Part shown: positions 15,116 to 59,429 of the stretch, in pieces
Numbering within the stretch: the stretch's first letter is position 1
How the letters are laid out: every line of letters starts with the position of its first letter
IMG/VR virus record: IMGVR_UViG_3300013119_000533
Span: 59,338 to 123,337 of that record
DNA length: 64,000 nucleotides
Origin: a virus
Direction: 5' to 3' (one strand)
The notes under the pieces: model-generated
The model's database searches: none
What the model was told of the DNA's origin: nothing
Seen by the model: the letters and a program-made list of their open reading frames with translations, nothing else
Made by a program: the position numbers and the translations under genes

Positions 15116-17431
15116 TTATTCAACTCTAAATTTAAACTCATCCTTATTAACGATGTTTTGACCATAACTATCCGTAGAGACCTCTAGTGCGTACATGTAC
15201 CCAGGCTCAAATAGAGACATATCAAGCTTGAAAAAACTTCCGCTTGAATCATATGACATCTTACTGTGTGGAATACTTCCTGAACCATACGATACAACCT
15301 CCTCTCCATCAATAACCCTATACGCCCGATAATATACATTATACAACACTTCATTCTGTAATTTATTACTTGCTACAGTATATATGTTTGGTTGGTGATC
15401 TTTTCTTCTCACATTAAGTCTCAATGATGGATTATCCTTGGTTCTATACACAGGTTTTAGATTAGACAAGGACACCACATACTCTTCATCTGCATTGCTA
15501 TATGGGAGAGGTGTGTGTGTCTTGACATATATTGCGGATCCTGTAAACAACTCATGCTTACCGCCATTGTGACTACTATCCGTATGAGACCAGACATCAT
15601 AAACCTTTGTGTGAGAACCTGTGGTTGCTAATGATGCGCTGTAAATCCCTGTTTCATGTAAGTAACATTCCGCAAAGTCTTGTGCCTGACCGTCAGCAAA
15701 GGTATTGCTTGGCACTGATACGTTCGTCACCGATGCCATACTAAGCGCTTTGTTGCCTGCGGTTCCAATAGCGTTCTGGGTGACTGTCACGGTACCGTCG
15801 CCGTTGTCTACTGCGGTAACTGCTAAACTGGTGTTCGCAATAGATTGTTGTATTCTTTCTGCAATTCCAGCATTGTTGCCAAGCACAGAGAAAATACCAA
15901 CAGTGGACGTGGTTGAACTATTTGCTGCGACTGAATTGTTCCCCTGTTGGAATGTAAACGTAACGGATGCGTCAGCAGAATCGGTCATCGTAAAAGTCTC
16001 AGCATTTCCAGGATTACCAGCAACGGTTATAGTTGCCTTTGCGCGTCCATCCTGAACGCCGCCTCCAACTGGTAGAACAATTGCTTTTGAACTAGACTTG
16101 AGGTCTGGATACAATCTAACTCTCATTAGCGCTTCGCCTGTAGATTGATCGGCACCATTGGGATCAGTCTTTAGTGCTGGAATGTTGGATAACCCCCTGC
16201 GAGTATAGTTGTACATGTATAACTGGTTTAGGTTCTCGGGTCCTGTTGCCAAAGATGAACTCTTGTAAAAGTTTGCTCTATCATCTCCTATCGAATCATC
16301 AAATCTCGCCTCGATACAAGGTCTCTTGAAGAAAAACTCCGTACCTCTAGCAAAAAATTTCTTAGTGTAGTATGACCTCTGTCGAGAACCATCCTCATAA
16401 GACCCTGACATCTTGATCATTACGCCATAATTCTCACGATCAGGATCAACGGTCGACTCTGCAGCAATCCATTCTTCGACCAATGCAGTTATATTAACCA
16501 ACACATCTTCTGTTCCATCGGTCAAATCAAATTTGTAGTGTGGTAGGTTTTCTCCAGCAGTGTATCCAACTTCATGAAAGTCACCGCCTTGGGTGGTCCA
16601 GCGAGATCTACCACCTCTCTGAACTTTTGTCAGTGTAAAGTGGGACGAATTTGAAATACTCTCTGGTATAATGGATCCAGAGGTGCCACCGACAACAGTG
16701 TTAGTGAGTCTAACTGTTGCGTTTGTGGAATCGCCCGTATCTTCGTTTGAGATAGATGCAGATAGATTTACACCAACAAGTGCGTCGACAGCTGTCTTTA
16801 CCTGTTTCGCGAACTTTCTAACATTCGCTGGTCCTGCCTGGTCTAATTGAACCTCGACTTCCGTGCCGTCAAGAGATGGTGCTGAACCAGTTCCATCGTT
16901 ATCAAACCAAAAATTGTATCTCTGATCTTCTTTGTTGTCATCTAGGACTTGAACTGAAAAATATTTGCCATCATAATGCGATAGGTTTGTTGAAACAAAT
17001 TTGATATCTGTTATATCCGCCACCTTTGTGTCATTTCGAAATATCCAGTTTGAAACGTCAAGGTCAGAATACTCCTCCATATCCAGACCAGACCCTTCAT
17101 CCCAAGAAGCTGAAATTGGTAAGATTGCCAAGGTTGAATCCTTTGGCAGAGTCTGACCATGTTCGGCATTATGTAATCTCAAAAAGAACCTAACGCTGCC
17201 CGATGCGGGGATAGTAGAATTAGTCCTATCTGTTGCGATCTTTGATATATCAAATTTTATGAGTGCTCTAGATTTCTCCAATGATCCAGACGAAGCCTGT
17301 CCAAATATAGAAAAAACTTCTAAGATATCTGAACGACCTGCATTCGATCCCGTTCCCCTGGTCGTCAACACTGAACTAAATGCATTGTTGATCGTGTTGT
17401 CGCCGTTTGAAAAATACCTCTTTATACTCAT
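15116..17431 (-). CDS. Virion protein with DNRLRE-like N-terminus, 771 aa
   Basis: The start ATG at 17431 overlaps the gp6 stop as ATGA. The first ~170 residues resemble DNRLRE-type beta modules of surface proteins: 'SGSLEKSRALIKFDISKIA', then 'SVRFFLRLHNAEHG' and 'ISASWDEGSGLDMEEYSD'. Two further beta modules follow at about residues 184-273 ('VKTAVDALVG... NATVRLTNTVVGGTSG') and 464-580 ('AETFTMTDSADASVTFTF... DNGDGTVTVTQNAIG'). Both are of the same style as one in the giant downstream protein. The C-terminal region ('LEVSTDSYGQNIVNKDEFKF') looks like an interaction domain. The gene lies between gp6 and the 4178-residue gene, so it probably links baseplate and side fibres; this is inference. 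Confidence 0.85.
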   Translation of the reverse strand: MSIKRYFSNGDNTINNAFSSVLTTRGTGSNAGRSDILEVFSIFGQASSGSLEKSRALIKFDISKIATDRTNSTIPASGSVRFFLRLHNAEHGQTLPKDSTLAILPISASWDEGSGLDMEEYSDLDVSNWIFRNDTKVADITDIKFVSTNLSHYDGKYFSVQVLDDNKEDQRYNFWFDNDGTGSAPSLDGTEVEVQLDQAGPANVRKFAKQVKTAVDALVGVNLSASISNEDTGDSTNATVRLTNTVVGGTSGSIIPESISNSSHFTLTKVQRGGRSRWTTQGGDFHEVGYTAGENLPHYKFDLTDGTEDVLVNITALVEEWIAAESTVDPDRENYGVMIKMSGSYEDGSRQRSYYTKKFFARGTEFFFKRPCIEARFDDSIGDDRANFYKSSSLATGPENLNQLYMYNYTRRGLSNIPALKTDPNGADQSTGEALMRVRLYPDLKSSSKAIVLPVGGGVQDGRAKATITVAGNPGNAETFTMTDSADASVTFTFQQGNNSVAANSSTTSTVGIFSVLGNNAGIAERIQQSIANTSLAVTAVDNGDGTVTVTQNAIGTAGNKALSMASVTNVSVPSNTFADGQAQDFAECYLHETGIYSASLATTGSHTKVYDVWSHTDSSHNGGKHELFTGSAIYVKTHTPLPYSNADEEYVVSLSNLKPVYRTKDNPSLRLNVRRKDHQPNIYTVASNKLQNEVLYNVYYRAYRVIDGEEVVSYGSGSIPHSKMSYDSSGSFFKLDMSLFEPGYMYALEVSTDSYGQNIVNKDEFKFRVE

Positions 17432-19221
17432 AATACGGTCCCCTGAATGTCTGCATTGGGATACTTGAGTTCATATATGTGATCAAACGGAATAGTTAGA
17501 GTCCTACCATCCATGCTTAAATTCTGTTCTATCTCATAAAAGAGAGTAGAGTATTGTTCTCCTTCCATATTTCGTACCGAGACATCCGTCACGTCGACGA
17601 CGAAATCTAGATTGCCTAAAAGTTTGTAAATATCGTTTAAGTACAGTGCTTCTCCAAGTTCTGGGTGGATTCTAAAATATTCAGAAATCTCCCTGTTACA
17701 AACTGTGATTGCTTCGGACGAAGTATAACTTCCGTCTGTTACGACCTGATAATCTATCCCAATGTTTATTATTCTCGCGTCCAAGATATCAAAAGTATCC
17801 GCCATCATTCTATAATGCTCGATCCAGGTCTTTAAATTATTCTTAAGGGTCAAATTACAATCAGTCAAGTTTCCACTCAAATCTTCCGAAGTGACATAGA
17901 GGTTTATGTTTCTCTTAAAAGAATCTTTATCGACAGCAACCGCACACCTCTTTATTGCTCCAAACTTCGCTGGCATGCTGTAGACCATAGATTTATAATC
18001 CTGCATTGTCACTGCACGGTTTTGAGAAGCAAATTGGTTTTTTGCCCTAACTATAATTTCATCCGTATCTGGAATTTCCAGATCTCCCAAAATTTGCTCT
18101 GGGTTGTGTACCTCTACAGAAGTGACAACCAGACTTCTTTTGGACTGTAACAAGATTGACTCATCAGGAAAAGCAAGCACAGGGTTTGTGACGACATTCA
18201 CGCTTCCAATGCTTGCATTTGTCACGTCCTTATCATCTCTCCTTACTCTGACTGACAATGTTGTGTTGGCAGGAGAGACTCCCATTTTTGTTGTAGACGT
18301 TAAATTTGTCGGATCAAACTCGTTATCAGAAACATACTGACTTCCAAACTGATTTAATACGACTTTTGAAGGATCTTCGTAAGATCCCGAAACAATATCA
18401 TTATCACTACCTTGACCAAACTGAAGTTCTACTCCGTTTTGAAAAAAACTTGCAACATACCTCCTCGGTACCGTTAAAGGTTTTATGATATTTTTAACCC
18501 TCTCGCTGTCTGGGTTCCTATTTGCCAAGTCGACATATATTACATCTTGCGATAAATGATCCACTTCGTAATACCGATGCCCTTCCTCGTCAACGACATC
18601 AACGATTTCAGAAGCATTTTCCACATTAAGAGTGATGGTTTTAAATCTTTCGAACGCACCAGTAGAAATCGAGATCGATTCAACGAATCCAGACTTTATC
18701 TGACCCAGTGCCCTAATTGCGTACTCAGAAGGGGCGCCCGTATCTGGGTTGGTTGCTGCGACGATTGTTTCGTTTTCGGGTGATGAAAAGTCAACATCCT
18801 CAATCAACGTATAGCGGCCGCCATCAACACTTGCAAATTCACTCCCCTGTTTTAAGACGGGTATATAATTTGTGTCTGGTGTATTTGTTATTGAATTTAC
18901 TGGGACTGTAATATAAAATTCACAGATACCATAAGATGTGATTGCTTCCGAGTATTTATACCCCATTGATCTTGCAAGAGATATCACGTTCTGCTTCTCA
19001 ACAGCAGTCTCTAGAAAACTTTCATTTACCTGGTAGTCCAAGTAGTATGATAAAACGTCTCCAACATAAGCTACCGAATCCAATAACAAAGACCCGAAAG
19101 ATGCTTCCGAAAAGTCCTGGTATGTGTCTGGGTAATATCTTCTGGCGTGCTCAACAAGGCGTGCCTTTATTGAATTAAAATCTCTCGCTGTGTATGAAAT
19201 GGGTATCTTCTTCTTTGGCAT
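17428..19221 (-). CDS. 6: Baseplate wedge protein, T4 gp6-like / baseplate J family
   Basis: The N-terminus has the characteristic gp6 signature 'YTARDFNSIKARLVEHARRY', then 'DFSEASFGSLLLDSVAYVGD' and 'YYLDYQVNESFLETA'. In T4, gp6 dimers form the continuous inner ring of the baseplate that triggers sheath contraction. At 597 residues the protein is close to the usual length for the family. Baseplate-J-like features continue with 'NQFASQNRAVTMQDYKSMVY', which is the conserved late motif. The ATG at 19221 is preferred to the TTG one codon upstream because GAGAGG lies about 7 nt before it. It is immediately downstream of the gp25 gene, the same pairing as in T4-like marine phages. Confidence 0.95.
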   Translation of the reverse strand: MPKKKIPISYTARDFNSIKARLVEHARRYYPDTYQDFSEASFGSLLLDSVAYVGDVLSYYLDYQVNESFLETAVEKQNVISLARSMGYKYSEAITSYGICEFYITVPVNSITNTPDTNYIPVLKQGSEFASVDGGRYTLIEDVDFSSPENETIVAATNPDTGAPSEYAIRALGQIKSGFVESISISTGAFERFKTITLNVENASEIVDVVDEEGHRYYEVDHLSQDVIYVDLANRNPDSERVKNIIKPLTVPRRYVASFFQNGVELQFGQGSDNDIVSGSYEDPSKVVLNQFGSQYVSDNEFDPTNLTSTTKMGVSPANTTLSVRVRRDDKDVTNASIGSVNVVTNPVLAFPDESILLQSKRSLVVTSVEVHNPEQILGDLEIPDTDEIIVRAKNQFASQNRAVTMQDYKSMVYSMPAKFGAIKRCAVAVDKDSFKRNINLYVTSEDLSGNLTDCNLTLKNNLKTWIEHYRMMADTFDILDARIINIGIDYQVVTDGSYTSSEAITVCNREISEYFRIHPELGEALYLNDIYKLLGNLDFVVDVTDVSVRNMEGEQYSTLFYEIEQNLSMDGRTLTIPFDHIYELKYPNADIQGTVL

Positions 19222-19243
19222 CAAAAATCCTCTCTATAAATAG

Positions 19244-19627
19244 TCATCGAACTGAATTTACATCTAATGATAAATTAAGGATATCGTCAGACAAAATCCC
19301 CTCTATGTTATAAGATAACTTAATGTTCAGTACGTGTTCTTCGATAAAAACGCTCAAATTTCTTATAACTACCGCAGGCATGTATGTGTCAATCTGGGTT
19401 GCGATCCTGTTTTCAAGTTCTGCTACCACCCTATGTGATTCGTTTTCGAAGAGAAAAGTTCTTACACCTACGCCGAAGTCTGGATTCATCACCCTTTCGC
19501 CTGGATTAGTTAAAAGTAAATTCTTTAGGTTTTGTTTCGTGTTTTCTGCCAAGGTCTTGTTTAATCCAATACATCCCTCTGCTTTTGAGACAGCAACTGG
19601 TAACTTTGGGCTGATTCCCACACTCAT
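19244..19627 (-). CDS. 25: Baseplate wedge protein, GpW/gp25 family
   Basis: A 127-residue protein with the gp25 hallmark 'LLLTNPGERVMNPDFGVGVR', then 'ENRIATQIDTYMP' and an ordered C-terminal beta region. In contractile injection systems gp25 family proteins bind the wedge core and nucleate the sheath. Length matches the family (about 110-150 aa). The start overlaps the stop of the 2800-residue gene by 4 nt (ATGA), indicating translational coupling. Position directly before gp6 matches known baseplate operons. Confidence 0.95.
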   Translation of the reverse strand: MSVGISPKLPVAVSKAEGCIGLNKTLAENTKQNLKNLLLTNPGERVMNPDFGVGVRTFLFENESHRVVAELENRIATQIDTYMPAVVIRNLSVFIEEHVLNIKLSYNIEGILSDDILNLSLDVNSVR

Positions 19628-25600: not shown

Positions 25601-28026
25601 TCTATATCATCTAATCCTGGTACACACTTCTTGTAATCACAAAGAATCATTTGAGGATCCCATTTCTGCAAAAACTCTCTCCACATATCTTCAAAGTTGC
25701 AAGCGATTTCACCAAATTTTGGATACACATCAGAAGTTTGAATAGTTTTTCCCTTTTGTTCAAAAAATGTTGATTCCAAAAGATTATCGAGACTTCTATT
25801 GGCAAGCCTCTTTTGCTCCAAGATGTGTGCTTCGATTGTTTTTATGCCGCGTCGGTCAAAATCTAGTCTAAGATTCACCCCCTTTGCCTTGCCTGGCCTA
25901 AATACAAAATTCGGCACTGGGTAGTGAAATCTACTAAAAAACAAAACAGCAGGTATCTTTTCAGCTTCATTACATGGGTTTGGTCTTAAGGATTTTATTA
26001 TCTCTGGTGCACTGTCTTCGCCAGATGTCCTGGTTAATGAATACAGGTACGACACCGTTGCGGGATAAATAAACGGATCTTTTGTTGTAAAGTCAGTAAC
26101 TCCTGTCGTTAACTCCTTCCTCTTGCCCTTAGCGTTGGTATTGTCAACGTGTATAACTTTGTATATTCTATGCCCAACAACCATCTCCACATTTTGACTA
26201 AGTTTTGGAGTGCCTGGTGCTGTCATCTCTGGTTGGGCAGTGCCATCTACAGGTAACGGTATATCTACCTTTTTCTTCACTTCATCAAAGTAGATCTCCA
26301 ATTTATCTTTACTAGTAGGGCCAACCTTGAGAGTCCTTCCGTTAGCAGACAGGAACCCCTCCAGGGCGGCAATGAGATTCATCAACCTCTTGGATTCGAC
26401 CACAGGATCTATTTGTGGAAAGATTGGTGGTGGTGGTGGCGGATTTTGAGCAAACTTATTATAAGGTCTTTTTGCCTTTGGGTTTGGTTTATTATCTTCT
26501 TCAAATTTCTTTATTTCTTTATCAAATGCTGCCAATTCTTCCGAAACTTTTTCTATGTGTCCGCGAATTTCCTGAATTGTGTAAATTCCAGGATTTACGA
26601 GAGAGTTTTCTCCCTTTCTGGCAGCGTTGGCGGATTCTACCTCTTCCTTGGTAGCCTCATCACGCTTTGTTTGGCTTGCACCTTGTCCAGTGCGAGATTT
26701 GTTCCAGAGATTCTTTACGGAATCCTTTGCGGCCTTTTCGGCCTGCATCTTCTTGCCATCGGCCCACTTCTTTGCGCCAGACTTAAGGGAACTTCCTTGG
26801 CGTTTCCAAAAATCCCCAGTGAGTGGTTTTCCAAGATCATTATTTACAAAATCCTTTGCTGCTTTGAATCCCGCAGCGGCAGCTGCAACGTTGTTTGGGT
26901 CCAATACATTGACAGTTCCTCCCAAATCTGCGGCACCAGCACCCCCACGAATCTGATTAAACATATCCTTTCTTATGCGAATGGACATAGAGTATGTTGA
27001 GTTGGGTCTTGCGCCTGGTTGCTCTAGGGAAACGATTGCTGCAAATACTGGACTTGCGCCATAATCCAAACTTTGTCCAAACAAGACATCTACCTTTTCT
27101 CCATTCAATTGCTCATTTAAGGACATACTATCTATCGTAAAGGTAAATTTCATTCCACTAACAAAACCATTTGCGCTGGCGGTGCGGTCTAACCCCTCTT
27201 GCAGATTGTCCTCCCCTTCTGTGTTGATCTGTAAATCATATCCACCTACCCTACCTTGGTGTTGCAAGATTTCTTCAAAAAGTCGTCTCGGCAGATCTTC
27301 ATCATCGATGGCGTCCTGCAGGGGTGATACGATTGGAACAAAACTTCGTTTGCCTGCATCTATGGTCCAGGTTTTTTCTTTCCCGTAAAATTCAAAAGTT
27401 TCAGTAACTGCCTGTCTAAACATCTGCTGCTTAACTTCTGGATTTTCTTCAAGGTATTTATCAGCGTCCTTGTATCCTGCAGCTGAAATGGTTTGTCTTG
27501 TTATATCAGTCTGGAGTTTGTACAACACATAATTTCCTACAATCTTCGGTGCATCTTGTTCTGAAGATGGCGTATGGAAAGATTCTGATGGGTCGCCGCC
27601 AGAAGGCAATCCAGCCAGGTGATTCAAAAATGCTGGTGTAGATATGAGCGATTGCATAGCACGTCCGAGTCCAAGTTCATTCAATACCTGCCAAGTTGGT
27701 TCTCCGATTTGACCCCTTTCTGACATGAATCCGCCTGGCAAGTCAATGTTGATAATTGCATCCGTGCCTGTGTCCATGCCATATTTACCTATCTCAAATA
27801 TTCTTGCTCTGTTGTCTTCCTGGAACTGTACCAGTGCGTTTTCAGTTACTGCATCAAACTCTGCGCTGGTGGTTTCAAGATCCCCCATTCCAAGGAAATA
27901 TTTTACAACATGAACTGCAAGACCTCTTGCTCCCGCTTGCATAGGCAACTCAAAAGTGATTGCTGATTCGTGCTCTTTCCCGTTCTGATCTCTGTATGTG
28001 AATGGTTTCTTTCTAAATGTTGTCAT
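19624..28026 (-). CDS. Giant baseplate/tail protein with PG-binding-like N-terminus, 2800 aa
   Basis: A single 8.4-kb frame between the 672-residue protein and gp25. Residues about 30-125 look like a degenerate peptidoglycan-binding (PG_binding_1) fold: 'AVHVVKYFLGMGD', 'FDAVTENALVQFQEDN' and 'GQIGEPTWQVL'. A proline-rich linker ('NPPPPPPIFPQID') lies near residue 535. A textbook 12-residue EF-hand loop, DADGDGDITGTE, occupies residues 1412-1423 and would bind calcium. Long charged helical stretches alternate with ordered regions, and the tail is acidic with several cysteines. The position inside the baseplate operon implies a baseplate or hub component. The start ATG at 28026 has AAGG upstream. 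No catalytic motif was recognised. Confidence 0.85.
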   Translation of the reverse strand: MTTFRKKPFTYRDQNGKEHESAITFELPMQAGARGLAVHVVKYFLGMGDLETTSAEFDAVTENALVQFQEDNRARIFEIGKYGMDTGTDAIINIDLPGGFMSERGQIGEPTWQVLNELGLGRAMQSLISTPAFLNHLAGLPSGGDPSESFHTPSSEQDAPKIVGNYVLYKLQTDITRQTISAAGYKDADKYLEENPEVKQQMFRQAVTETFEFYGKEKTWTIDAGKRSFVPIVSPLQDAIDDEDLPRRLFEEILQHQGRVGGYDLQINTEGEDNLQEGLDRTASANGFVSGMKFTFTIDSMSLNEQLNGEKVDVLFGQSLDYGASPVFAAIVSLEQPGARPNSTYSMSIRIRKDMFNQIRGGAGAADLGGTVNVLDPNNVAAAAAGFKAAKDFVNNDLGKPLTGDFWKRQGSSLKSGAKKWADGKKMQAEKAAKDSVKNLWNKSRTGQGASQTKRDEATKEEVESANAARKGENSLVNPGIYTIQEIRGHIEKVSEELAAFDKEIKKFEEDNKPNPKAKRPYNKFAQNPPPPPPIFPQIDPVVESKRLMNLIAALEGFLSANGRTLKVGPTSKDKLEIYFDEVKKKVDIPLPVDGTAQPEMTAPGTPKLSQNVEMVVGHRIYKVIHVDNTNAKGKRKELTTGVTDFTTKDPFIYPATVSYLYSLTRTSGEDSAPEIIKSLRPNPCNEAEKIPAVLFFSRFHYPVPNFVFRPGKAKGVNLRLDFDRRGIKTIEAHILEQKRLANRSLDNLLESTFFEQKGKTIQTSDVYPKFGEIACNFEDMWREFLQKWDPQMILCDYKKCVPGLDDIEFDLQFKFEIPSLPKLPTFNPLHFVLPQMKIALSDMIISFICEMVKNILEAISYPDCVDALQYGAAQLSKLNDKNKENPFANAEQKADLAEKTSEVLSNLGIPQDVLFGESESSISSLFDSISLVLRPSELCDLLQGQASPSVLTVVLNVIKSSDSQLKTVMKTLAEISEFFRVLGQVVDPYLCDRLREIEEVIVADALCEERSGMDGLRKRLEQAGISSKEIAQQMKGAQKRRDALRKIASDGNFDSLLPGNLPSELKAKDMPGPYSNPHHDRVAKMAVKSLLSNVKSAFSLEITGIPDAMVDMNESLIAPGEPGFNSKDYLYYKYYTTQVQNLENQLPARKAGKIATARSISPFDRLKVILWFESIGIPREELQYMQFYFQDNSTDAEAILLNPTGDSDPEKAEQLADLIEEKITGYVIKYSKEDPHVFPEMRDISSSDVTTVTRKTTATTGSPYRELHVRVMTRPSEFQPDNVDSKSNTPSRISAGYSDMPFISSQMKDCYRVSYIVNYASDNFESVYFNKVYKEQLPAEYIEARKQSIDIQSDKHVDKLLRPGGFADLYIEGLKKVSDNKSETNLDVYEENSIRNHISGFIEGSGGLTLDADGDGDITGTERIVYLLNLIAQTAATRQDGFSIYEGFSDAFNFHISDLVKNSKYFSFDEMYQLQQDISKDFIVEGSLQGKPCYVPNPKLLDFEKIVEDFLSSYKNETEKPENDPQFRDFTEPGPLQTSSAAGLFGLYVKFSCMEIIFKSMFLFSNFGPKGAFDSQFMIDYVVNYVMNDIEKKVNSTSIKDKVIKTVKKITKMDDEKAALRSLILKNIDTKSIEEFVTKVFDGKYASFSEKVRNEIAENAKEVPSIDNYPKIIIQEDPTDASARREDLEVLRQHLDKVERIRSSDWVLDHLSRHARIRELRRLAEESSDIFAKISYTQQADAMEQDALGITLQERADQNVYDLRWATEYTNNLLDGYKRMPVAAIIPNIYDRFAFEGYSEELIQKKINSGHFWMEKFYRIKNFPEFFRIYNELYLEVDSDPLLRNILNIGTNPETSLYSEYVSPTDMEHLLFGAEDTDTRVERMQALEENLERNRVEYDFVQKFYLKLISNFFAGRPTLPAYYVYDSPSARQIWHSGRCYKSIAIRMMIDIGFAAKKPENVITRHPDVESGGTPFGFTANISGYGINWGNPSPRTIEAAEIIEPLSEDAILTELDYAYRSGQVSKGELIERVLFIIDDVNADDGAFDANREMLRTWSNNIEGPEALPKAFPGVGTLTRPWAETFHAQWSKLGAYKWLGREFVFEQERYSDNPGYAYKDIPRRRKAELIVECLTNMIDIIHNWPTNTSEENTIKTRVHWRDDPRMPRGSGYYDNAKEIFEQVATAKRSIDYARKWYYSLREDNADSMKVNLDDWRIGSNPSGYGSPPSTRGTPWYGGGRMQKAVLDYYISRTYTPILDERQFSSPKSASGALAIGKPVTWNSPSGVQEDETFNLDIPINEFYASTIVPKQQELYDFLKSNLQIGGRLMMGQKAYRQYERPATPAGAGSSEVSGINVMETKPSDIFADFRPHVDRQVDMSSVDSRTVGLMSDGSLFNRKKCFLAYADKYPLNTAEGPTSLDYRSSFYNLASVQSSFQTLGSAMVSNSYMPINIFDDDVKNTLVYSIPIHEHIEDVGCLDDLYAEESEEIFFPMTPSQTGFIGLQTRREMIRDRIYALKEESIVTNLLALGPVDASMGSRPINDAPVNHPANVALKILFPLDRYVGIHTLQNSIIFDEFRSDDGLLTATKMACLGYMGITGTAHEPEVIFPETDIDESRAFDFGATMGDFWKMFYKILEKLVKQSYARTVRTVGRFGDPAYRDMRKQYREDPCEMKSGLTNELVGHPIVDGNYDGDLDRGFGKKNGKKQYVPINSLPIDILLSTLPTPSFSDIAKVSKHVAGLTTGSNTRYGYPLGPFGLLALSAPQITGETLSNIKERKQCETPGEEEAEGICKDKEGEDQ

Positions 28027-28027
28027 A

Positions 28028-30046
28028 TTAATTAACCTTATTATACTTACTCTTTATGGAAGCTTTTGAACCATCTTCTAAGTAAGTTTTTTCTATTACT
28101 TCAGGATTTTGCTGTAGCGAGAAAGCAGAGAAAGTATCCACAGACACTAATTTCATAACCTTTTCTAACATCTTGACCGTTAGTGCTGGTAGTTTAACCG
28201 ATACTCCGGCTGTTGGTGTAACATGCTCATGATTTAGTATTGCACCATACACCTCAATCATATCCTTCTTCAAAGAAGTAATGGCCCCCGCGATTTGTGC
28301 CTGGTTGTTTAACATCTCTTTTAGCAACAAAGTTAGATAGTCGCCTTTGATTAATGGTTGTAACTCATTTGCCTTGTTTGCCGCTATCAAACAAATACCC
28401 AAAGGTTCATTTGCACCTGACCCTCCTTTTGAGTTTACTGATTCAGCGTTTTCAGTCACCAGTCGAATGCCAGATTTGCGAGATATTATTCTAATTCCAT
28501 CTGCCTTCATCGCTATGCCAGAGATGGCCCTGGATGGTTTTGTCTTCGGCGGTAAGGATAGAGAGAAGTTCTCATCTAAATCAGTTTTTTGAGAAATATA
28601 AATTCTTGCAGCGTCCATTACCGTGAGTGTTTCACCATTCTCATAAGTAAATCTTTCGGATGTAAAGATTGGTCCAACATGTTGTTTTCTACCTTTCGAG
28701 TCGAAAGATATTGGTTTTGGTGACATTCTACCTACAACAATATCAATTGCACCTGCTTGAGTGTGTCCCTGTCCAGGCCCATACCCAGTACTAAGTCCGG
28801 CTGGTCGGTCTCTACCAAAAACTATCCAGGTATTATTTTTACCCGTAACGACTTTGTCCGATGAGCACTTATCAAAAAAAGGTACTGGTTCTGGAAGAGG
28901 TCTGTCCAATAGTCCTGTATTTGGACCGACACCTACATTTGGCGCAACATCTCTCGCTATACCATCAGTCATAATGACAGGTTGAGACCCTGGTTTTACT
29001 TTTGTTGGTGCTGCTGGTCTTTTATCCTCTACAGATTCTGCCTTTGATTTGACTACAGATGTTGTGCCGTCTTGTCCTAATGTCGGATCTGCTTCAAAAT
29101 GTTCATATCCGAGGTCCTCTGGTGTTTCCAGAGGTGCTACTGGAAGTCCAGAAACCGAACCTTCTCCAAATAAAAGATTTGCTTCTCTCATTTCTCGCAT
29201 AAACCTTTCAACATCTGCATCATTTACGGGAGGTTTTGGCATACTGAGAGTCATGCCAGCAATCTGATTCGACGCGCCTGGTGGTAAACTTGCCATACCA
29301 GGAAGATCAGATAAAGCGCCTGGTGGTGGTTTTAATGGATATTCTTCAAAACTATATGCGTCATCAGCAGTCGGAGGTATTCTACTATAGAGTATATCAT
29401 ACAAAGAGGGGTGCTCGGTTTTAAACTTTACTATAAATTGATCTACTGAGGTATTTGCGAACTGATCTGCCTTCCAACCTTGATAATCTTCTTTAGATAT
29501 CGTATAACTTGCATCAACCACACCAAGGCCGCTGACAACTTCAATATAAAGAGTGTCCTCTGTTCTGGTGAACAGGACAGTCTGCTCTGTCAAATCTTCG
29601 TCTAATGAAGAGGCTTCGTCTCTTTCAATATCTCTCTGGTTTGCTTCAAGTGGGTCGGCCTGTTCGGTTGGACCAATGGTATCCTCCGCTTCGTCTTCTG
29701 GTTCCATACCAGGAGGATCTGGGTTGGAGGGAGGAACTTGTCCTGTTCGTGCTGCCTCTCTTATTTCAGACTCTCTTTGTATATCCCTTCTTGCTACTGA
29801 GGCATCAGTACCTCGAACTGAGTACTGAGATCCACCGATGGGCGTTACAATAAATTCGACACTTTCATTATTGATCCTGTGGCCAAACCATTCGATACCA
29901 TTCTGCCTGTAGTACTCTTCTATCCTGTCTTCAAGTTCAAAAATTCCTGAACCATCGGGCTTGGCACTAAGGCGCAGACCTTCCTCTGTAAATTTTGGAT
30001 TTCCGAGATAAATTGTTTTTAACTGTTCAAACGTCTTCTGTGCCAT
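28028..30046 (-). CDS. Virion protein, 672 aa, baseplate/hub-associated
   Basis: The first ~90 residues form an ordered N-terminal domain. An acidic, proline-rich low-complexity linker (about 100-370) follows, and then a second ordered domain beginning 'NTWIVFGRDRPAGLSTGYG' and continuing 'AGAIDIVVGRMSP'. That second domain resembles uncharacterised virion proteins of marine phages, from memory only. Residues about 500-560 carry repeated short beta strands ('DGIRIISRKSGIRLVTE'), which are suggestive of a beta-helical or OB-like spike segment. The start ATG at 30046 has AAGG about 8 nt upstream and a TATAAT-containing element 10-25 nt upstream, so it may head its own transcript. No enzyme activity is claimed. 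Confidence 0.82.
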   Translation of the reverse strand: MAQKTFEQLKTIYLGNPKFTEEGLRLSAKPDGSGIFELEDRIEEYYRQNGIEWFGHRINNESVEFIVTPIGGSQYSVRGTDASVARRDIQRESEIREAARTGQVPPSNPDPPGMEPEDEAEDTIGPTEQADPLEANQRDIERDEASSLDEDLTEQTVLFTRTEDTLYIEVVSGLGVVDASYTISKEDYQGWKADQFANTSVDQFIVKFKTEHPSLYDILYSRIPPTADDAYSFEEYPLKPPPGALSDLPGMASLPPGASNQIAGMTLSMPKPPVNDADVERFMREMREANLLFGEGSVSGLPVAPLETPEDLGYEHFEADPTLGQDGTTSVVKSKAESVEDKRPAAPTKVKPGSQPVIMTDGIARDVAPNVGVGPNTGLLDRPLPEPVPFFDKCSSDKVVTGKNNTWIVFGRDRPAGLSTGYGPGQGHTQAGAIDIVVGRMSPKPISFDSKGRKQHVGPIFTSERFTYENGETLTVMDAARIYISQKTDLDENFSLSLPPKTKPSRAISGIAMKADGIRIISRKSGIRLVTENAESVNSKGGSGANEPLGICLIAANKANELQPLIKGDYLTLLLKEMLNNQAQIAGAITSLKKDMIEVYGAILNHEHVTPTAGVSVKLPALTVKMLEKVMKLVSVDTFSAFSLQQNPEVIEKTYLEDGSKASIKSKYNKVN

Positions 30047-30111: not shown

Positions 30112-30714
30112 TCACCTACTTTTCAGGGGTTTCACTATAGCGCCTTTAGCGCCGAACTTTTGTTTGGATTTGGGGCCCCCTTTCTTTGGTTTTGGTGGTT
30201 TTTTGGGATCTTCATAATTCAATTCAGATGAGGACGTACCTTCGATTATGCCATAATTGTCCCCTATCATAATAACATCAACTACCCTGTCCTGTGCCAT
30301 TAAACTAGTTTCTTGATCTTCTACAAAAATCTCATATATAACTGGACACAACTCCTTTACTACGTTATTGGGATCAATAAAAGATGAAATCCCAGTGACG
30401 ATCGCCCTATGCTCCACAACTATAATTGCTTCGTCACTGTCTTCAGATCTACGAAAATTGAGAGACCCAATGACGCCATCTCTGTGTGGTTCAGGTATTG
30501 CACTTGTTGGTAACTTTCTAGAACTTATTATAATAGCAGGGTAACGTTTTCCTGCTGCATCTACAGTTCTGGATCTACTCATATGATCGATTGCTGCTTC
30601 GGTGTCGACAACAACATCTCCCGACAGTGCAAGCACAGTCGAAGCCAAAACGAGCGTCCTCGACGTTTCATAAGATTGAAGTTTTCTTTTTAACTTTTCT
30701 AGTTCTTCACTCAT
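30112..30714 (-). CDS. Virion module protein without enzyme domain (paralogue 1), 200 aa
   Basis: Residues about 30-170 match the N-terminal domain of the two preceding genes. Shared landmarks are 'RYPAIIISSRKLPTSAIP', 'EHRAIVTG', 'CPVIYEIFVED' and 'IMIGDNYGIIEG'. Where the other two proteins continue into hydrolases, this one ends in a short Lys/Pro/Gly tail ('PKKPPKPKKGGPKSKQK'). The shared domain is therefore probably a virion-docking module, and this copy may be a stand-alone structural version. The start overlaps the SGNH gene stop as ATGA. Function is inferred from paralogy and from position between the sigma factor and the baseplate genes. Confidence 0.85.
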   Translation of the reverse strand: MSEELEKLKRKLQSYETSRTLVLASTVLALSGDVVVDTEAAIDHMSRSRTVDAAGKRYPAIIISSRKLPTSAIPEPHRDGVIGSLNFRRSEDSDEAIIVVEHRAIVTGISSFIDPNNVVKELCPVIYEIFVEDQETSLMAQDRVVDVIMIGDNYGIIEGTSSSELNYEDPKKPPKPKKGGPKSKQKFGAKGAIVKPLKSR

Positions 30715-32021
30715 ATCATTATCGCCTTTGTTATCAACTGTGATGACCCTTTTATAGAAGGATGTATGTGATCCATCATCTCGACTTGTGGCGTAGATCC
30801 AGCAAAACTAAATGTAGAATACTTACTAGATATATGGTTATTGACCTCTGTAGTAAATCTACCATAATGGTCTATCTTGGATTGATTGTCGAAATCATTT
30901 TTAGTATTAACTTTTCTTGTTTTACTTCCATTCCAAGGAAGGTTTACTAACATCACCCTGACCTCATATCCCGACTTTATTCCAAGAGCAACGATTGCAT
31001 CAATATTCTTTTTTGCAAGATCAGCAGTGAATGATGTATTTCTATTCTTTCCATAACCGCCTCTTGCATGCTTTCCCCAACCTGATTGACCAAGAGCATC
31101 GTTTGTCCCTGCTGATACTATCATCACTTTTTTCTTTCCCGAAGTAGTTAGTGTCGTTTTCCCAAAATGTGCTTTAAGTCTTCGAAGTATCTGCGCTGTG
31201 GTGGCGCCCGAAAGAGCAACGGAGGTTTTGCATTGGTAATATAAGTTCTTACCTCGACAGTGAGGGTAATTTATGATTCCTTGACCGACGGCGGCGATGG
31301 TCATTCCAGCGGCGATACTATCCCCAACAATCAAAAATTCAGTTTCTTTGATGTCTGGTTTTTCTTTTATTGCATCTGCAAGGGATTTGCCAGGTGTTGT
31401 ATTTTTTGGTGATGGTTTCGGTACACCCTTCGAGGCATCTTTTAATTTATTTGACTGCTTTTTTTTAAACTTGTCTTCCGTTTTGGGTTTGTCTTTTGGC
31501 TTAGGTGGTTTTTCCCCCTTAACATATGGCAGTCCAGATGCTTTTTGAGATCTTACTATTCCATAATTTGGTCCAAGCATTCGCACGACGCAACTTCTGT
31601 TAGTCTGCATGTCAGTACCATCTTCCGATTCCCCAACTTCATATACGATTGTCAACATTTCAGCTGGTAATTTTGCGGGATTCACATGACTGCCCTGACC
31701 TGCGACGATGGCATAGTGCCTAGATAAAGTTATTGAGTTAGTTGTATCTGAGTCTTCATCTTTGGATACTATTCTCAAAGATGATAACACCTTATCGTGT
31801 GCTGGGGAAATTTGTGATACGGAGATCTTTTCTGTTTTTATTATTATAGCAGGAGTAAACTCTTCACTGTACCCCACCACTCTTGATTTGGATAGGTGTG
31901 CGGCCGCAGTGCGAAGTCTAGACTCAAACGATTCGCCTGGTGTGTGTGATACCACGTCTTCGTCGAGTACCTGATTACCAGAACCTGCTTCTGTAAATAA
32001 GGAATATTTATCTTTACTCAT
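30711..32021 (-). CDS. Virion-associated SGNH/GDSL hydrolase with shared N-terminal module
   Basis: The start MSKDKYSLF at 32021 is preferred to an upstream in-frame ATG because it overlaps the previous stop as ATGA with GGAG about 8 nt before. Residues about 20-165 are the shared module ('FTPAIIIKTEKISVSQIS', 'AEMLTIVYEV', 'MLGPNYGIV'). A Lys/Pro-rich linker leads to an SGNH hydrolase. Block I is 'FLIVGDSIAAG' with nucleophile S235, block II is 'ALSGATT', block III is 'SAGTND' with N307, and block V is 'DHIHPS' with D417 and H420. All four catalytic positions are present. SGNH enzymes hydrolyse ester bonds such as O-acetyl groups on glycans, so deacetylation of host surface polysaccharide or peptidoglycan at the tail is likely. 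The exact substrate cannot be read from sequence. Confidence 0.9.
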   Translation of the reverse strand: MSKDKYSLFTEAGSGNQVLDEDVVSHTPGESFESRLRTAAAHLSKSRVVGYSEEFTPAIIIKTEKISVSQISPAHDKVLSSLRIVSKDEDSDTTNSITLSRHYAIVAGQGSHVNPAKLPAEMLTIVYEVGESEDGTDMQTNRSCVVRMLGPNYGIVRSQKASGLPYVKGEKPPKPKDKPKTEDKFKKKQSNKLKDASKGVPKPSPKNTTPGKSLADAIKEKPDIKETEFLIVGDSIAAGMTIAAVGQGIINYPHCRGKNLYYQCKTSVALSGATTAQILRRLKAHFGKTTLTTSGKKKVMIVSAGTNDALGQSGWGKHARGGYGKNRNTSFTADLAKKNIDAIVALGIKSGYEVRVMLVNLPWNGSKTRKVNTKNDFDNQSKIDHYGRFTTEVNNHISSKYSTFSFAGSTPQVEMMDHIHPSIKGSSQLITKAIMI

Positions 32022-33421
32022 CTCTTGCGCTCCGCCCTCATAAATCCCGCTTTTTTGCCTGCGACATGAGTTTCTAGGCTCCAATCATTTGGTCCTAAAG
32101 TAATTGTCTGCCCCTTGGCGAACGGTATCGAGTAGGTATATCCGTCCTTACCCCTAAACCTATAGATATACCCTTCTTCCTTTACTTTTTTATTGTGGGC
32201 AGCTAAGACTTCCCTGAATTTCTTTAAGTTCTTAAGATAATTCTCCACTGTCTTTTTGGGGTTTCCTATAACTTTCCCTTTAATTGGACTATAGATTTTG
32301 GTGCCTTCGAGGGCGCCAATATCCAGTCCGCCGTGAGAAGTTCCTGCTGCCCTCTTTTGTCCAAATTCTGCAAAACCAGCTGGGGCGTACACGTTTCCAC
32401 CTTTGCCTGAGTTTATGTAGTAATCCCATGCTTTACCCTTATTGAGTGGGTGTTTGTTGCATACTTTGGCCAGGTGTCTGCGGGGATTATACTTTTTCTG
32501 TTTGCGGCCGCGCCATCTTACAACCTCGATATGAGTGTGAGGGAATTGATCCTTACCTTCCTTGTTCAAAGGGTCCATCATACCAGACCTGCCAACCATT
32601 CCTAAATAATCCCCAACCTCAACTTTGCCGTTTTCTAGAAGCGCTTCATTTACGGCTTGAAAATGAAAGAATTTAAGAATATAGTTATCAATAAGAGAGT
32701 CATTATTGCCAACACCCACGAGCGAGACCCTCACGCCAGCCGACCAAGAACTTCTGACACTATTGCCATACCCTGGAGCAAATCTAACCATATTATGTAT
32801 AATGACATAAACTGCGATTGTGTGATTCAATTTTAAATCCTTAAATCCATTAGGTCCGTCTTCTGGTACTGGCACAACCACCAATTCGCCGCGAGGGTTG
32901 CGGTAAAACGCTGGTTTAGCTGGGGGTCGGTCGACTCCGAGTTCTATAGCACCAGACTTAATGTGAGAATCCACAATACCATAATCTGTCGACAACATTT
33001 GAACCCTAACTTCTCTAATGGTATTCTGATTGGTTGTAACATCCGTCGAAGAGTCTGTGAATTCATATATTACTGTAAATATCTCAGCAGGCATGGTAAT
33101 TGCGTTTCGTCCTCCAGTAAGTCCCTCAACTGCACAATAATGCCTAATGACAGACATTGCAGTATCTGAATCGGTATCCACGGATTCTGGATTTATTAAA
33201 TCCCGTGCCTTTTGGTGAGCGTCTGGGATTTGAGATATACTTATCTTTTGCGACTTCAATATCAAGGCACTCCTCGTATTCAGTAATGATTCCGTCTTTG
33301 CTGAAGCGTGTGAGTTTAGGGACTCAATATTATCCGTGATGTCGGTGCCGACTGCTTGGGTTTTTGAAGTGTCCAACGTTGTGTCGGTCATAGAATAGTG
33401 TAGATATTTTGATGATGTCAC
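32018..33421 (-). CDS. Virion-associated M23-like metallopeptidase, permuted halves, with shared N-terminal module
   Basis: A GTG start at 33421 is preceded by GGAGG with 6-nt spacing. Residues about 25-180 are the shared module ('TRSALILKSQKISISQIP', 'AEIFTVIYEF', 'MLSTDYGIVDS'). The rest has all M23 (LytM-type) landmarks but in reversed order. First comes the C-half: H253 in 'FFHFQA', 'VEVGDYLGMVGRSG', then H295-T-H297 in 'FPHTHIEVV'. After that comes the N-half: 'TSHGGLDIGALEGTKIYSPI' with H363 and D367. In normal M23 enzymes HxxxD comes first and HxH last. M23 peptidases cut peptidoglycan cross-bridges, so a tail lysin is likely. The basic C-terminus has no second HxH motif. Confidence 0.88.
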   Translation of the reverse strand: MTSSKYLHYSMTDTTLDTSKTQAVGTDITDNIESLNSHASAKTESLLNTRSALILKSQKISISQIPDAHQKARDLINPESVDTDSDTAMSVIRHYCAVEGLTGGRNAITMPAEIFTVIYEFTDSSTDVTTNQNTIREVRVQMLSTDYGIVDSHIKSGAIELGVDRPPAKPAFYRNPRGELVVVPVPEDGPNGFKDLKLNHTIAVYVIIHNMVRFAPGYGNSVRSSWSAGVRVSLVGVGNNDSLIDNYILKFFHFQAVNEALLENGKVEVGDYLGMVGRSGMMDPLNKEGKDQFPHTHIEVVRWRGRKQKKYNPRRHLAKVCNKHPLNKGKAWDYYINSGKGGNVYAPAGFAEFGQKRAAGTSHGGLDIGALEGTKIYSPIKGKVIGNPKKTVENYLKNLKKFREVLAAHNKKVKEEGYIYRFRGKDGYTYSIPFAKGQTITLGPNDWSLETHVAGKKAGFMRAERKR

Positions 33422-33422
33422 C

Positions 33423-33713
33423 CTAGTCCTCCGAAGAGTTTATCATCTCAAACAAGCTATCCTTTTCATCTTCGGAAATGGAGTTGTCGACCTTAGAACT
33501 CTTTTTGTGTTGTAGTGCTGCAATCTTAACTAACTGTTCATTTGACCTTTGAAGGGTTTCTAAATACTTTGCCGCCACCAGGCCAACTTCTCGATGGCGG
33601 TCGGTTGTCTCTTGCATGTATTTCATCAGATTTGTCAACAAAACTTTCGTTGCGGCACGATCTTCGGTGACGTTTCTGGTTGCTTCTGATATTAATTCTT
33701 CAATCTCTTTCAT
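33423..33713 (-). CDS. Small coiled-coil protein, 96 aa
   Basis: A charged, almost entirely helical protein beginning MKEIEELISEATRNVTEDR, with heptad-like spacing of Leu/Val through the middle and an acidic tail ('SEDEKDSLFEMINSSED'). It ends 1 nt before the GTG of the permuted M23 gene and starts 12 nt after the sigma factor stop. It could be a chaperone or small structural protein for the following tail genes, but nothing in the sequence decides this. Confidence 0.75.
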   Translation of the reverse strand: MKEIEELISEATRNVTEDRAATKVLLTNLMKYMQETTDRHREVGLVAAKYLETLQRSNEQLVKIAALQHKKSSKVDNSISEDEKDSLFEMINSSED

Positions 33714-33725
33714 ACAATAAATATG

Positions 33726-34430
33726 CTAAATTTGAAATTTATCACCCCGTTCATATTTGATCACAAAGTACTTATACCTTTCCCTCATCTTATTCAATGT
33801 ATTTACTATCTGCTTTGTTTTGAGTCCAGTAATTTCTCTTAAATACAAATAGACCGCTTTTTTGTTTAAGATTTCTATATCCTCAACATTTTCTAAAAGT
33901 ATCTTCACAGCAGACAATACTTTCTTTTCATTATCCTTGGTGAAGAGGTTTGAACCTTGCCATCGATCAACCTCTAGTTTTAAATACCCCCAGAACTCGT
34001 ACTTCTCTCGCCTATTGACATAACCTTCATCGTTGTATATCAACCGTTCGTGCTGGTTTTCTTTGACGATCTCCTCATAAGCAACCTCTCTTTTTACTTT
34101 TGTGGAATTCTTCTTGAACTGGTGAATGAACCAATGCTTCGTAATTACGGAAAAATAAGAAAATGCTTTAGATCCTCTATTCGGGTCGTACTTGCTGAGA
34201 ATAGTTGTTAACCAAACTTTACAATCGTCTTTCAGGACATCTATGTTTGGTATGTTTGTGAAGTTATAAGTGTAGATGATCTTATCAACCATCTCACTAA
34301 AGGCGGGTTGTATATATTGTACATACAGTTTTTCACGTTTATCTCTACTTTCAGTAGAACAATATTCGACTATTGCATCCTCGTGAACACTTGTAAAGTA
34401 ATAATTTTTAGTCCTCTTCTTTCTCGGCAT
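33726..34430 (-). CDS. 55: Late-transcription sigma factor, T4 gp55-like
   Basis: A 234-residue basic protein with a sigma region-2-like core: 'YDPNRGSKAFSYFSVITKHW' is the part most like gp55 of marine T4-like phages. It is preceded by a helical segment ('CKVWLTTILSKY') and followed by basic residues. The C-terminal helices ('KTKQIVNTLNKMRERYKYF') could be the region-4-like or clamp-contacting part. gp55 redirects host RNA polymerase to late promoters such as TATAAATA. It sits at the head of the virion genes, where a late regulator makes sense. Identification rests on motif memory; a distant gp55 relative is the best call. Confidence 0.75.
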   Translation of the reverse strand: MPRKKRTKNYYFTSVHEDAIVEYCSTESRDKREKLYVQYIQPAFSEMVDKIIYTYNFTNIPNIDVLKDDCKVWLTTILSKYDPNRGSKAFSYFSVITKHWFIHQFKKNSTKVKREVAYEEIVKENQHERLIYNDEGYVNRREKYEFWGYLKLEVDRWQGSNLFTKDNEKKVLSAVKILLENVEDIEILNKKAVYLYLREITGLKTKQIVNTLNKMRERYKYFVIKYERGDKFQI

Positions 34431-34973: not shown

Positions 34974-35180
34974 CTAATCGCTTCCAACTGTACTATTTGT
35001 TTCATTCACATCCATAAGATGCGATGTATCAATAGTTGGAGGGTTTAATATAATAATCTCCTCGTTTTCACCCAACATTAAATCAAACCCCCTCAATACT
35101 GGGGTGATATCCGTTTGCTTCATTAGTGAGTCTTGTAGTGCCAACATAATTGCACCAAGTGCTTGATCAGATAATTTCAT
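34974..35180 (-). CDS. Small conserved hypothetical protein, 68 aa
   Basis: It begins MKLSDQALGAIMLALQDSLM, with an N-terminal helix of alternating hydrophobic pattern, then an acidic segment and 'IIILNPPTIDTS'. It overlaps the APS kinase stop by 4 nt (ATGA) and precedes the zinc ribbon by 4 nt. The layout resembles small proteins of unknown function in cyanophage-type genomes, from memory. No function is proposed. Confidence 0.75.
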   Translation of the reverse strand: MKLSDQALGAIMLALQDSLMKQTDITPVLRGFDLMLGENEEIIILNPPTIDTSHLMDVNETNSTVGSD

Positions 35181-35719
35181 TTTTTTCCTCCTGTTTCTTC
35201 TAAAATAAAATTTACTAAATTTTCTACCGACTGGTCAATAGTTTCCTTATTGGTGTCGATAATTAAATCTGCGTTCTTTGGTTCTTGGAATGGATCCGAA
35301 ATGCCCGTAAAGTTCGGGATATGCTCAGGATCCGTTTTAGGTAAAAGTGCCTTTCTGTACAATCCTTTGGGATCTCTCTCAATTAAGGTTTCAATATCAC
35401 ACTTAACATAAACAATCCTAGACAGCGGGTTGTCAGACTTTACCTCTCTCCGTATATCATCATAAGGGTTTATTGCAGACATTACACAGACCACTTTGTT
35501 GCGGGACAAAACCTTCCCAACAAACGAAAGTCTTCTGATATTAGTGTTCCTGTCCTCTTTTGAAAACCCAAGGTCCTTGCAGAGTCCCTCTCTATATTCG
35601 TCACCGTCGATAACCTCTACATTATAACCCATCTCTCTTAGGCGGGTTTGTGCTAAAAAAGTCATTGTAGACTTACCTGCGCCACTCATGCCTGTCATCT
35701 GTACAAAAATACCACTCAT
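35177..35719 (-). CDS. cysC: Adenylylsulfate (APS) kinase
   Basis: CysC phosphorylates APS to PAPS, the universal sulfate donor. The 180-residue protein has the P-loop 'GMSGAGKST', the APS-binding segment 'DGDEYREGLCKDLGFSKEDR', then 'NIRRLSFVGKVLSRN', 'RDPKGLYRKAL' and 'FTGISDPFQEP'. All are conserved in CysC and length is normal. It lies 1 nt after the nucleotidylyltransferase gene and in the same block as a PAPS-dependent sulfotransferase (37844-38530). That argues it feeds glycan sulfation rather than sulfate assimilation. Confidence in the family is high; the pathway role is inferred. Confidence 0.95.
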   Translation of the reverse strand: MSGIFVQMTGMSGAGKSTMTFLAQTRLREMGYNVEVIDGDEYREGLCKDLGFSKEDRNTNIRRLSFVGKVLSRNKVVCVMSAINPYDDIRREVKSDNPLSRIVYVKCDIETLIERDPKGLYRKALLPKTDPEHIPNFTGISDPFQEPKNADLIIDTNKETIDQSVENLVNFILEETGGKK

Positions 35720-35720
35720 A

Positions 35721-36122
35721 TTATTCTCCCAAATACCTTATTACTAAATCATGTATAGATGAGTCGACATTCTCACGCCAAGACTCATTGCTCTCTTTGA
35801 TGTTGTTTCTAATTCCAGTAGCGGAAATAAACCCAATGTTCTGTGGAGGTACGTGCTCGTTAAGTTCATACCCAACTCCGCGTCCCCAATTGACACTTTC
35901 AATGTCTGGGATACAAACTACCTCCACGTCCTGCTCACTGTATACTTTTTGTATCATTTCTACTGTCTGTTCTGTAGTAAAAGGATTCTTTTCATCGGGC
36001 GGGATATCCCTAACTGCGATCAAGATTGGTTTACCCTCGCTTAGCTTCTGGTTGATTAACCACTTGTGTCCATTGTGAAATGGTTGCCACCTGCCAACAA
36101 ACATTGCTCTCTTATTGATCAT
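35721..36122 (-). CDS. HxGH-superfamily nucleotidylyltransferase (possible APS-forming partner of CysC)
   Basis: A small (133 aa) HIGH-type nucleotidylyltransferase. It has 'MFVGRWQPFHNGHKWLI' containing the HNGH nucleotide-binding motif, and 'ISATGIRNN', the ISxTxIR signature. The middle 'VVCIPDIESVNWGRGVGYE' is distinctive. It could be an NMN/cytidylyl-type enzyme. ATP sulfurylase belongs to the same superfamily, and the gene is directly upstream of cysC with a 1-nt gap, so a role in supplying APS is an attractive inference. The alternatives are NMN adenylyltransferase or CMP/ADP-sugar activation. It overlaps the dehydrogenase stop by 11 nt. Confidence 0.85.
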   Translation of the reverse strand: MINKRAMFVGRWQPFHNGHKWLINQKLSEGKPILIAVRDIPPDEKNPFTTEQTVEMIQKVYSEQDVEVVCIPDIESVNWGRGVGYELNEHVPPQNIGFISATGIRNNIKESNESWRENVDSSIHDLVIRYLGE

Positions 36123-59254: not shown

Positions 59255-59429
59255 CCTTGTACCATCCTTTGCCCTTTAGTTTAAATGAAGTGTTGTTAAC
59301 TTTCTTTTTATAAGACTTGGTAAAACACCTTGGGCATACTGTTTGTAAATATTTTTCAGAGTCGGAAAATGATAAGATTTCTTCTACTTCATACCCACAT
59401 TTTTCACACTCATACAAATATATTGGCAT
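59244..59429 (-). CDS. FmdB-family zinc-ribbon protein, 61 aa
   Basis: Starts 'MPIYLYECEKCGYEVEEILS', with CxxC followed by a second CPRC pair and the C-terminal 'FKLKGKGWYKDGY', which is the standard end of FmdB family proteins. It overlaps the ClpP stop by 1 nt. Second zinc-ribbon paralogue next to 34709-34969. Zinc-binding; role unknown. Confidence 0.9.
   Translation of the reverse strand: MPIYLYECEKCGYEVEEILSFSDSEKYLQTVCPRCFTKSYKKKVNNTSFKLKGKGWYKDGY

Follow-up and report, generated by a model that had tools for sequence, protein, structure and literature searches.

The window analysed here comprises 64,000 nucleotides of the IMG/VR virus record IMGVR_UViG_3300013119_000533 (positions 59,338 to 123,337), and all coordinates below refer to this stretch. 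On its minus strand, from 33421 to 30112, three consecutive co-oriented genes were observed, whose products combine a related N-terminal domain with different C-terminal payloads and are considered here as candidate subunits of a phage tail spike. The genes and the parts recognised or predicted in their products are as follows:

32018..33421 (-), paralogue 1: 467 amino acids (aa), GTG start behind GGAGG; leader, predicted OB-type domain, M23-like payload
32951..33274 (-), predicted OB-type core of paralogue 1: residues ~50-157
32468..32851 (-), M23-like segment 1 of paralogue 1: residues ~191-318; FFHF and HTHIE, with a possible NGFKD in place of HxxxD
32021..32419 (-), M23-like segment 2 of paralogue 1: residues ~335-467; HGGLD, no clear HxH
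30711..32021 (-), paralogue 2: 436 aa, ATG start; leader, predicted OB-type domain, basic linker, SGNH esterase
31551..31853 (-), predicted OB-type core of paralogue 2: residues ~57-157
30747..31328 (-), SGNH/GDSL hydrolase domain of paralogue 2: PF13472, 34.5 bits (cut-off 32.9)
30112..30714 (-), paralogue 3: 200 aa; leader, predicted OB-type domain, short basic tail, no enzyme
30235..30546 (-), predicted OB-type core of paralogue 3: residues ~57-160; core strands modelled with a predicted local distance difference test (pLDDT) of ~80; fold matches to phage spike proteins

A previous sequence-only reading of the window had placed the array at 30112-33421, which is correct, and the three gene calls fit these limits; a 457-aa open reading frame (ORF) beginning at TTG 32084 is an over-extended version of paralogue 2. 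ATGA overlaps were found at both junctions (paralogues 1/2 and 2/3), so translation of the three genes is probably coupled. The same region was recovered intact from other IMG/VR contigs and assemblies at 99.95-99.99% identity, which disfavours an assembly error, and no fourth copy was detected in the 123-kb source record.

Pairwise BLASTP of the N-terminal regions gave E-values of 7e-19 (42% identity over 110 aa), 6e-19 (36% over 130 aa) and 2e-8 (28% over 152 aa), a similarity far beyond chance that clearly marks them as paralogous and bears out the earlier claim of three tandem proteins with one common module. The proteins do not begin with a ~140-residue domain, as had been proposed; the common core spans ~110 residues and starts at about residue 50-58, after variable leaders. 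The same conserved positions of this core are retained in all three copies, and the short basic tail of paralogue 3 resembles the linker of paralogue 2. Additionally, a short xxAF or xKF motif was noticed ~15-30 residues past the domain in many proteins found at the same genomic position in related phages, including the window's three; it sits in otherwise low-complexity linkers and is a tentative observation.

A variable slot in the baseplate block

The array is flanked by the following genes:

33726..34430 (-), gp55-like late sigma factor, upstream: PHROG_234, E=9e-5
33423..33713 (-), gene of ~96 aa marking the upstream edge of the slot; a ~100-aa gene across the lineage
28028..30046 (-), conserved downstream gene, 672 aa; the C-terminal ~300 residues of its product serve as slot marker throughout the lineage
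19244..19627 (-), gp25 baseplate wedge homologue, downstream: PF04965, E=4e-12; PHROG_261
17428..19224 (-), gp6 baseplate wedge homologue, downstream: PHROG_219, E=5e-19

Downstream of the array, the 672-aa gene is followed by a 2800-aa gene and then by the gp25 and gp6 homologues. With these wedge homologues on one side and the gp55-like sigma factor on the other, the array sits in the baseplate block of a T4-like contractile-tail phage. Neither paralogue 1 or 2, the 672-aa and 2800-aa neighbours, nor homologues from one related locus (L027) found a match by tblastn among 50,697 phage records, which places the lineage far from cultured phages. The C-terminal ~300 residues of the downstream gene, with the motifs GRDRP, GAIDIVVGR and RIYISQKTD, mark this uncultured lineage. 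A scan of a genome collection (GTDB contigs) returned a single contig with the marker, in an Actinomycetes metagenome-assembled genome, which is of no use for host assignment.

Searches of IMG/VR for related loci with paralogue 1, paralogue 2 or the three-paralogue alignment yielded near-identical contigs only. Relatives were therefore collected through the C-terminal ~300 residues of the downstream gene (171 and 293 in IMG/VR, with 80 kept each time), and the slot was defined as the interval between the ~100-aa gene and the conserved downstream gene. Both flanks were detected in 82 distinct loci, in which the slot held one gene (69 loci), two genes (9), three genes (2) or no called gene (2); these counts are approximate, as ORFs were called mechanically and one locus (L041) has one slot gene in one tally and two in another. 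Three-gene slots were observed only in the window's phage and in L078 (IMGVR_UViG_3300025168_000047), which encodes three OB paralogues with SGNH, muramidase and amidase payloads.

The first slot gene normally encodes an OB-like N-terminal domain followed by a variable payload, and 70 OB-like slot proteins were found. Among 83 payload regions, the Pfam census identified VanY (18), Amidase_2 (12), M15_4 (7), muramidase (5), GDSL (3) and CHAP (2), together with GH25, M23, M15_3, phage lysozyme, M74 and GH19 once each; the M15 models in this census may overlap. In most two-gene slots the OB domain is limited to the first protein, and the second protein, a hydrolase, lacks it (L036, L039, L073 and L079). 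In four loci (L051, L052, L057 and L059) the sole slot protein consists of an OB domain and a short basic tail without an enzyme (192-210 aa), like paralogue 3, so some phages of the lineage seem to use an enzyme-free spike. Taken across this widespread lineage, the predicted spike occupies a slot in which one enzyme has repeatedly been replaced by another. In one further locus, L155, the gp55-like gene and the ~100-aa gene are separated by a 208-aa gene (4991-5617) that by eye resembles a GIY-YIG homing endonuclease.

The closest syntenic relatives (L112/L098, L113/L095, L114/L084, L115/L097, L116 and L117/L087) each carry one slot protein with the window-type domain, and their payloads are either amidase (PF01510) or look by eye like M15 or transglycosylase domains, without a Pfam match. 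In a midpoint-rooted tree of nine rows, the three window copies formed one clade apart from these six single-copy relatives (100/100), with paralogues 2 and 3 as sisters (82/80). This monophyly, with the BLASTP paralogy, supports the proposed tandem duplication with different payloads, and a predicted gp5-type spike gene is thus triplicated in the window with M23-like, SGNH and no payload. The proposed order of events, in which a docking domain was duplicated and enzymes were attached later, is not supported: because fusions of the OB domain to a hydrolase are already present in the single-copy relatives, it was probably a payload-bearing gene that was duplicated, with payload exchange and loss following. 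The L078 copies cluster elsewhere in the OB family, where two of them are sisters and the third falls next to L069/L086 without clear resolution, so at least two separate triplications are likely.

Fold of the shared domain and nature of the payloads

Among 1798 ORFs, the profile built from the six single-copy relatives alone retrieved paralogue 3 (E=1.7e-8) and paralogue 1 (E=1.3e-5). Conversely, the profile of the three window copies found L098 at 1.9e-8 and L084 at 7e-7. Aligned with hhalign to the general OB family of the slot, the six relatives scored 27.6 over 120 collinear columns; 18 unrelated families taken from these loci reached at most 18.9, and 150 column-shuffled decoys at most 15.6.

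Structure prediction, which the sequence-only reading had proposed as a check, returned an OB-type fold for both paralogue 3 and the OB family. The AlphaFold2 model of paralogue 3 (nine sequences) has core strands near pLDDT 80 and the element order strand-helix-strand-strand-strand-strand, and the model of the OB family (24 sequences, L046; pLDDT 85.6) has the same order. An N-terminal five-stranded OB barrel is thereby predicted, at moderate model confidence and with weak E-values. In a Foldseek search of the PDB, the first four matches of the paralogue 3 model were the P1 baseplate chain 9vzk_q, a Klebsiella-phage baseplate protein and T4 gp5 twice (1pdl and 1k28); after these came numerous further OB folds, IF1 and eIF1A among them. 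Among predicted viral proteins, 'Gp5 N-terminal OB-fold' and 'baseplate hub + tail lysozyme' entries were among its best matches, while the OB family model matched the P1 baseplate, extracellular-injection-system spikes and VgrGs. The fold-search E-values are individually weak (0.006 at best), and it is their concordance across libraries and models that carries the argument. In BFVD, three unnamed viral proteins whose accessions lie near each other (A0A1B1IUR3, A0A1B1IUR4 and A0A1B1IUT8) were all top structural matches of paralogue 3 and may come from another phage with several spike paralogues.

Since the profiles of the six relatives find the window copies and the fold search returns spike chains first, the domain is, with moderate confidence, a divergent form of the gp5-type OB domain of the central spike. 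It is placed in the gp5 group by structure and synteny, and no curated sequence family matches it. The docking domain of the earlier interpretation therefore keeps its supported role at the tail, but as a divergent gp5-type OB domain instead of an anonymous docking module.

The SGNH hydrolase assigned earlier to paralogue 2 was confirmed, as its PF13472 score exceeds the cut-off and the blocks GDS, GTND and DHIHP are all present. SGNH domains were identified in five slots (the window, L036, L039, L078 and L099), four of which are multi-gene. Multi-gene slots make up ~11 of the 82, and the enrichment of SGNH domains there (hypergeometric ~9e-4) comes from a small post-hoc sample. Their neighbours in the slot are a lysozyme and an M23 domain in L036 and a muramidase and an amidase in L078; the first slot gene of L039 had no Pfam match. 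An accessory role of the SGNH domain would be reasonable, for example in removing O-acetylation by which the other wall enzymes are blocked.

The payload of paralogue 1, previously described as an M23-type peptidase, contains M23-like halves and motifs but scores 27.4 bits against PF01551, under the 28.7 cut-off, and its HxH half comes before its HxxxD half. When the segments were scanned apart, residues ~218-304 of segment 1 corresponded to positions 21-90 of the model and residues ~362-412 of segment 2 to positions 2-54. Accordingly, the HxH (H295 and H297; HTH) precedes the HxGxD (H363...D367; HGGLD), the reverse of a normal M23 domain, while the standard order within one domain was found in L036, L041 and L163. 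The reversed order suggested a circular permutation. As the sole answer for one M23 domain this was rejected, given that the payload of ~280 residues equals two M23 lengths and that segment 1 holds the possible degenerate NGFKD; a complementary tandem M23 pair is at least as likely. In the alignments prepared for structure prediction of this payload, the M23 rows were placed inconsistently.

The arrangement is compatible with an active site that is composite or permuted, or with two degenerate M23 folds forming a pair. If the pair were non-catalytic and served binding or structure, the SGNH domain would be the sole active enzyme of the array, a prospect that we place slightly short of even odds. 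The score under the Pfam cut-off agrees with it, as does the lack of the HxxxD histidine in one segment and of HxH in the other; furthermore, there are precedents in degenerate M23 folds that are still functional and in Csd1-Csd2, a heterodimer of an active and a degenerate partner (PMC9662197). On the other hand, the two segments jointly hold the HxGxD, the upstream histidine (FFHF) and the HxH exactly once each, which suits a composite or circularly permuted site.

Spike composition and alternative explanations

Combining position, profiles and predicted fold, we interpret the three genes as encoding paralogous gp5-type central-spike subunits of a contractile-tail phage, with a probability of about 0.72. 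The N-terminal OB domain of each protein would lie beneath the hub ring, at the tail-tube tip; contraction of the sheath would drive the spike through the outer membrane, and the spike would then present its enzymes to the periplasmic cell wall. T4-like phages have one trimeric spike per tail, which, together with three coupled paralogues, suggests a mixed trimer as the simplest arrangement. Tentatively, and at clearly less than even odds, the three proteins are subunits of one 1:1:1 heterotrimer with M23-like, esterase and no payload and complementary activities, a design that would have arisen at least twice (in the window and in L078). Such a trimer would give one spike several activities and one enzyme-free structural chain, and would have formed by triplication of one spike gene followed by payload swap or loss, as in the slot across the lineage. 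The retained OB domains and the ATGA coupling support it indirectly.

Several observations weigh against spike subunits or their mixing. The domain had no Pfam, PHROG or NCBIfam match, including any curated gp5 or VgrG sequence family, and the same holds for the members of the OB family. Profile searches of solved-structure sequences with either alignment gave chance matches only. The three window copies alone scored 15.7 against the OB family in hhalign, which is not above the decoys, so their link to that family is transitive. The paralogue 3 model has a low mean confidence (pLDDT 61.6), and all fold E-values are weak. No C-terminal beta-helix was recognised by eye in the three proteins; the enzyme-carrying OB spikes of this lineage likewise have no obvious one, and the downstream gene might supply a beta-helix needle. 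Its 672-aa product is possibly a needle or tip, which is a guess, and it had no match among solved-structure sequences. The case for the spike is built on metagenomic sequence and prediction, and the proposed place of the proteins in virions, the make-up of the trimer, and the activity and substrates of the enzymes are deduced from these. Finally, in S. marcescens, heterotrimers of VgrG1 and VgrG2 apparently do not form (PMC4924876).

This last precedent also favours an arrangement in which the gp5-type proteins form alternative homotrimers, with one kind of spike per virion and three lytic variants in the population. One gene is enough in 69 of the 82 loci, and domain-only spikes occur as the sole slot gene, so a homotrimer is evidently workable; the ATGA overlaps, which suggest coupled and balanced translation, are a better fit to a joint complex, and we regard alternative homotrimers as rather unlikely. 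Alternatively, one copy, such as the enzyme-free paralogue 3, could be the structural spike while the other two are accessory lysins docked by their OB domains elsewhere in the baseplate. The enzyme-free gp5 spike of P1 (PMC12810830) and the restriction of the OB domain to the first protein in most two-gene slots are in keeping with this. The OB-type core is, however, kept with the same conserved positions in all three window copies and is also kept in all three L078 copies, which would be unexpected had two left the spike; this option appears unlikely, a little more so than alternative homotrimers. It is improbable that the domain is unrelated to gp5, with its position and weak fold matches coincidental and the proteins being soluble lysins or something else. 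The missing curated-family and solved-sequence matches and the non-significant direct profile comparison would agree with such a coincidence, but it is opposed by the transitive profile link, the baseplate-block synteny, the shared element order and the spikes at the top of independent fold searches.

Wider neighbourhood and comparison with known spikes

Two long ORFs of 4178 aa (2577-15113) and 2800 aa (19624-28026) had no Pfam or PHROG match, the 4178-aa one having been scanned with PHROGs only. The closest relative of the 2800-aa gene (57%) is in L012, which ends before the slot. At 56413-57738 (-), a PhoH2-like protein matched NCBIfam NF053827 at E=3e-87, below the curated cut-off. Upstream of the baseplate genes, a run of glycan genes extends over 35177-40520 (-), assigned by eye as follows:

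35177-35719 (-), APS-kinase-like protein
35721-36122 (-), nucleotidyltransferase
36112-36981 (-), UDP-sugar dehydrogenase
36978-37847 (-), epimerase
37844-38542 (-), sulfotransferase-like protein
38530-39195 (-), glycosyltransferase
39143-39856 (-), NeuB-like protein
39840-40520 (-), formyltransferase

An APS kinase near a sulfotransferase hints at a sulfated glycan made by the phage.

No heterotrimeric phage spike was found in the literature searched. Paralogous spike proteins have been discussed for phiKZ, and a heterotrimer established there would lower the novelty of the arrangement proposed here. In T4, gp5 is a homotrimer encoded by one gene; it bears a lysozyme, and its OB domain connects the hub ring with the beta-helix (PMC3004832). 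The window resembles it in the N-terminal OB-type domain followed by a cell-wall enzyme, in the T4-like baseplate block and in the fold matches to 1pdl and 1k28; unlike T4, it has three paralogues with different payloads, no recognised beta-helix and no sequence-family match. The P1 gp5 spike is trimeric and without lysozyme (PMC12810830). Chain 9vzk_q, probably P1 gp5, is the top PDB match of both models and, with 207 aa, is near the size of paralogue 3, whereas the P1 study reports no enzyme-bearing paralogues. Cyanophage A-1(L) has a trimeric spike with an N-terminal helix and an OB fold (PMC10966104), and its chain 8kea_D is among the fold matches of both models; in contrast to the window, its spike is built of one protein and its hydrolase activities are on the hub.

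Among type VI secretion systems, VgrG-2 of V. cholerae has virtually no C-terminal extension and interacts with other VgrGs, and a homo- or heterotrimer has been proposed (PMC3166118). VgrG-1, VgrG-2 and VgrG-3 thus parallel the window as three spike paralogues, one of them nearly without a C-terminal extension, but they fuse gp27-like and gp5-like parts and their genes do not form one tandem array. The nearest parallel within the lineage, L078, has three adjacent genes in the same slot, each with an OB domain and a payload, although its OB domains are of the general type and its genes do not overlap.

Each of the cited solved phage spikes (T4, P1 and A-1(L)) is a homotrimer and has no more than a single type of enzyme. 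Most relatives of the window's phage have a single spike copy with a single enzyme, whereas this phage has three copies, with peptidase-like, esterase and no payload. If true, a mixed-chain spike would let a phage combine enzymes, in parallel to the proposal for type VI VgrG spikes. Furthermore, the slot census represents a natural catalogue of tail-borne cell-wall enzymes (M15, amidase, muramidase, SGNH, CHAP, M23 and others), and gene position finds such enzymes although their sequences match no cultured phage.

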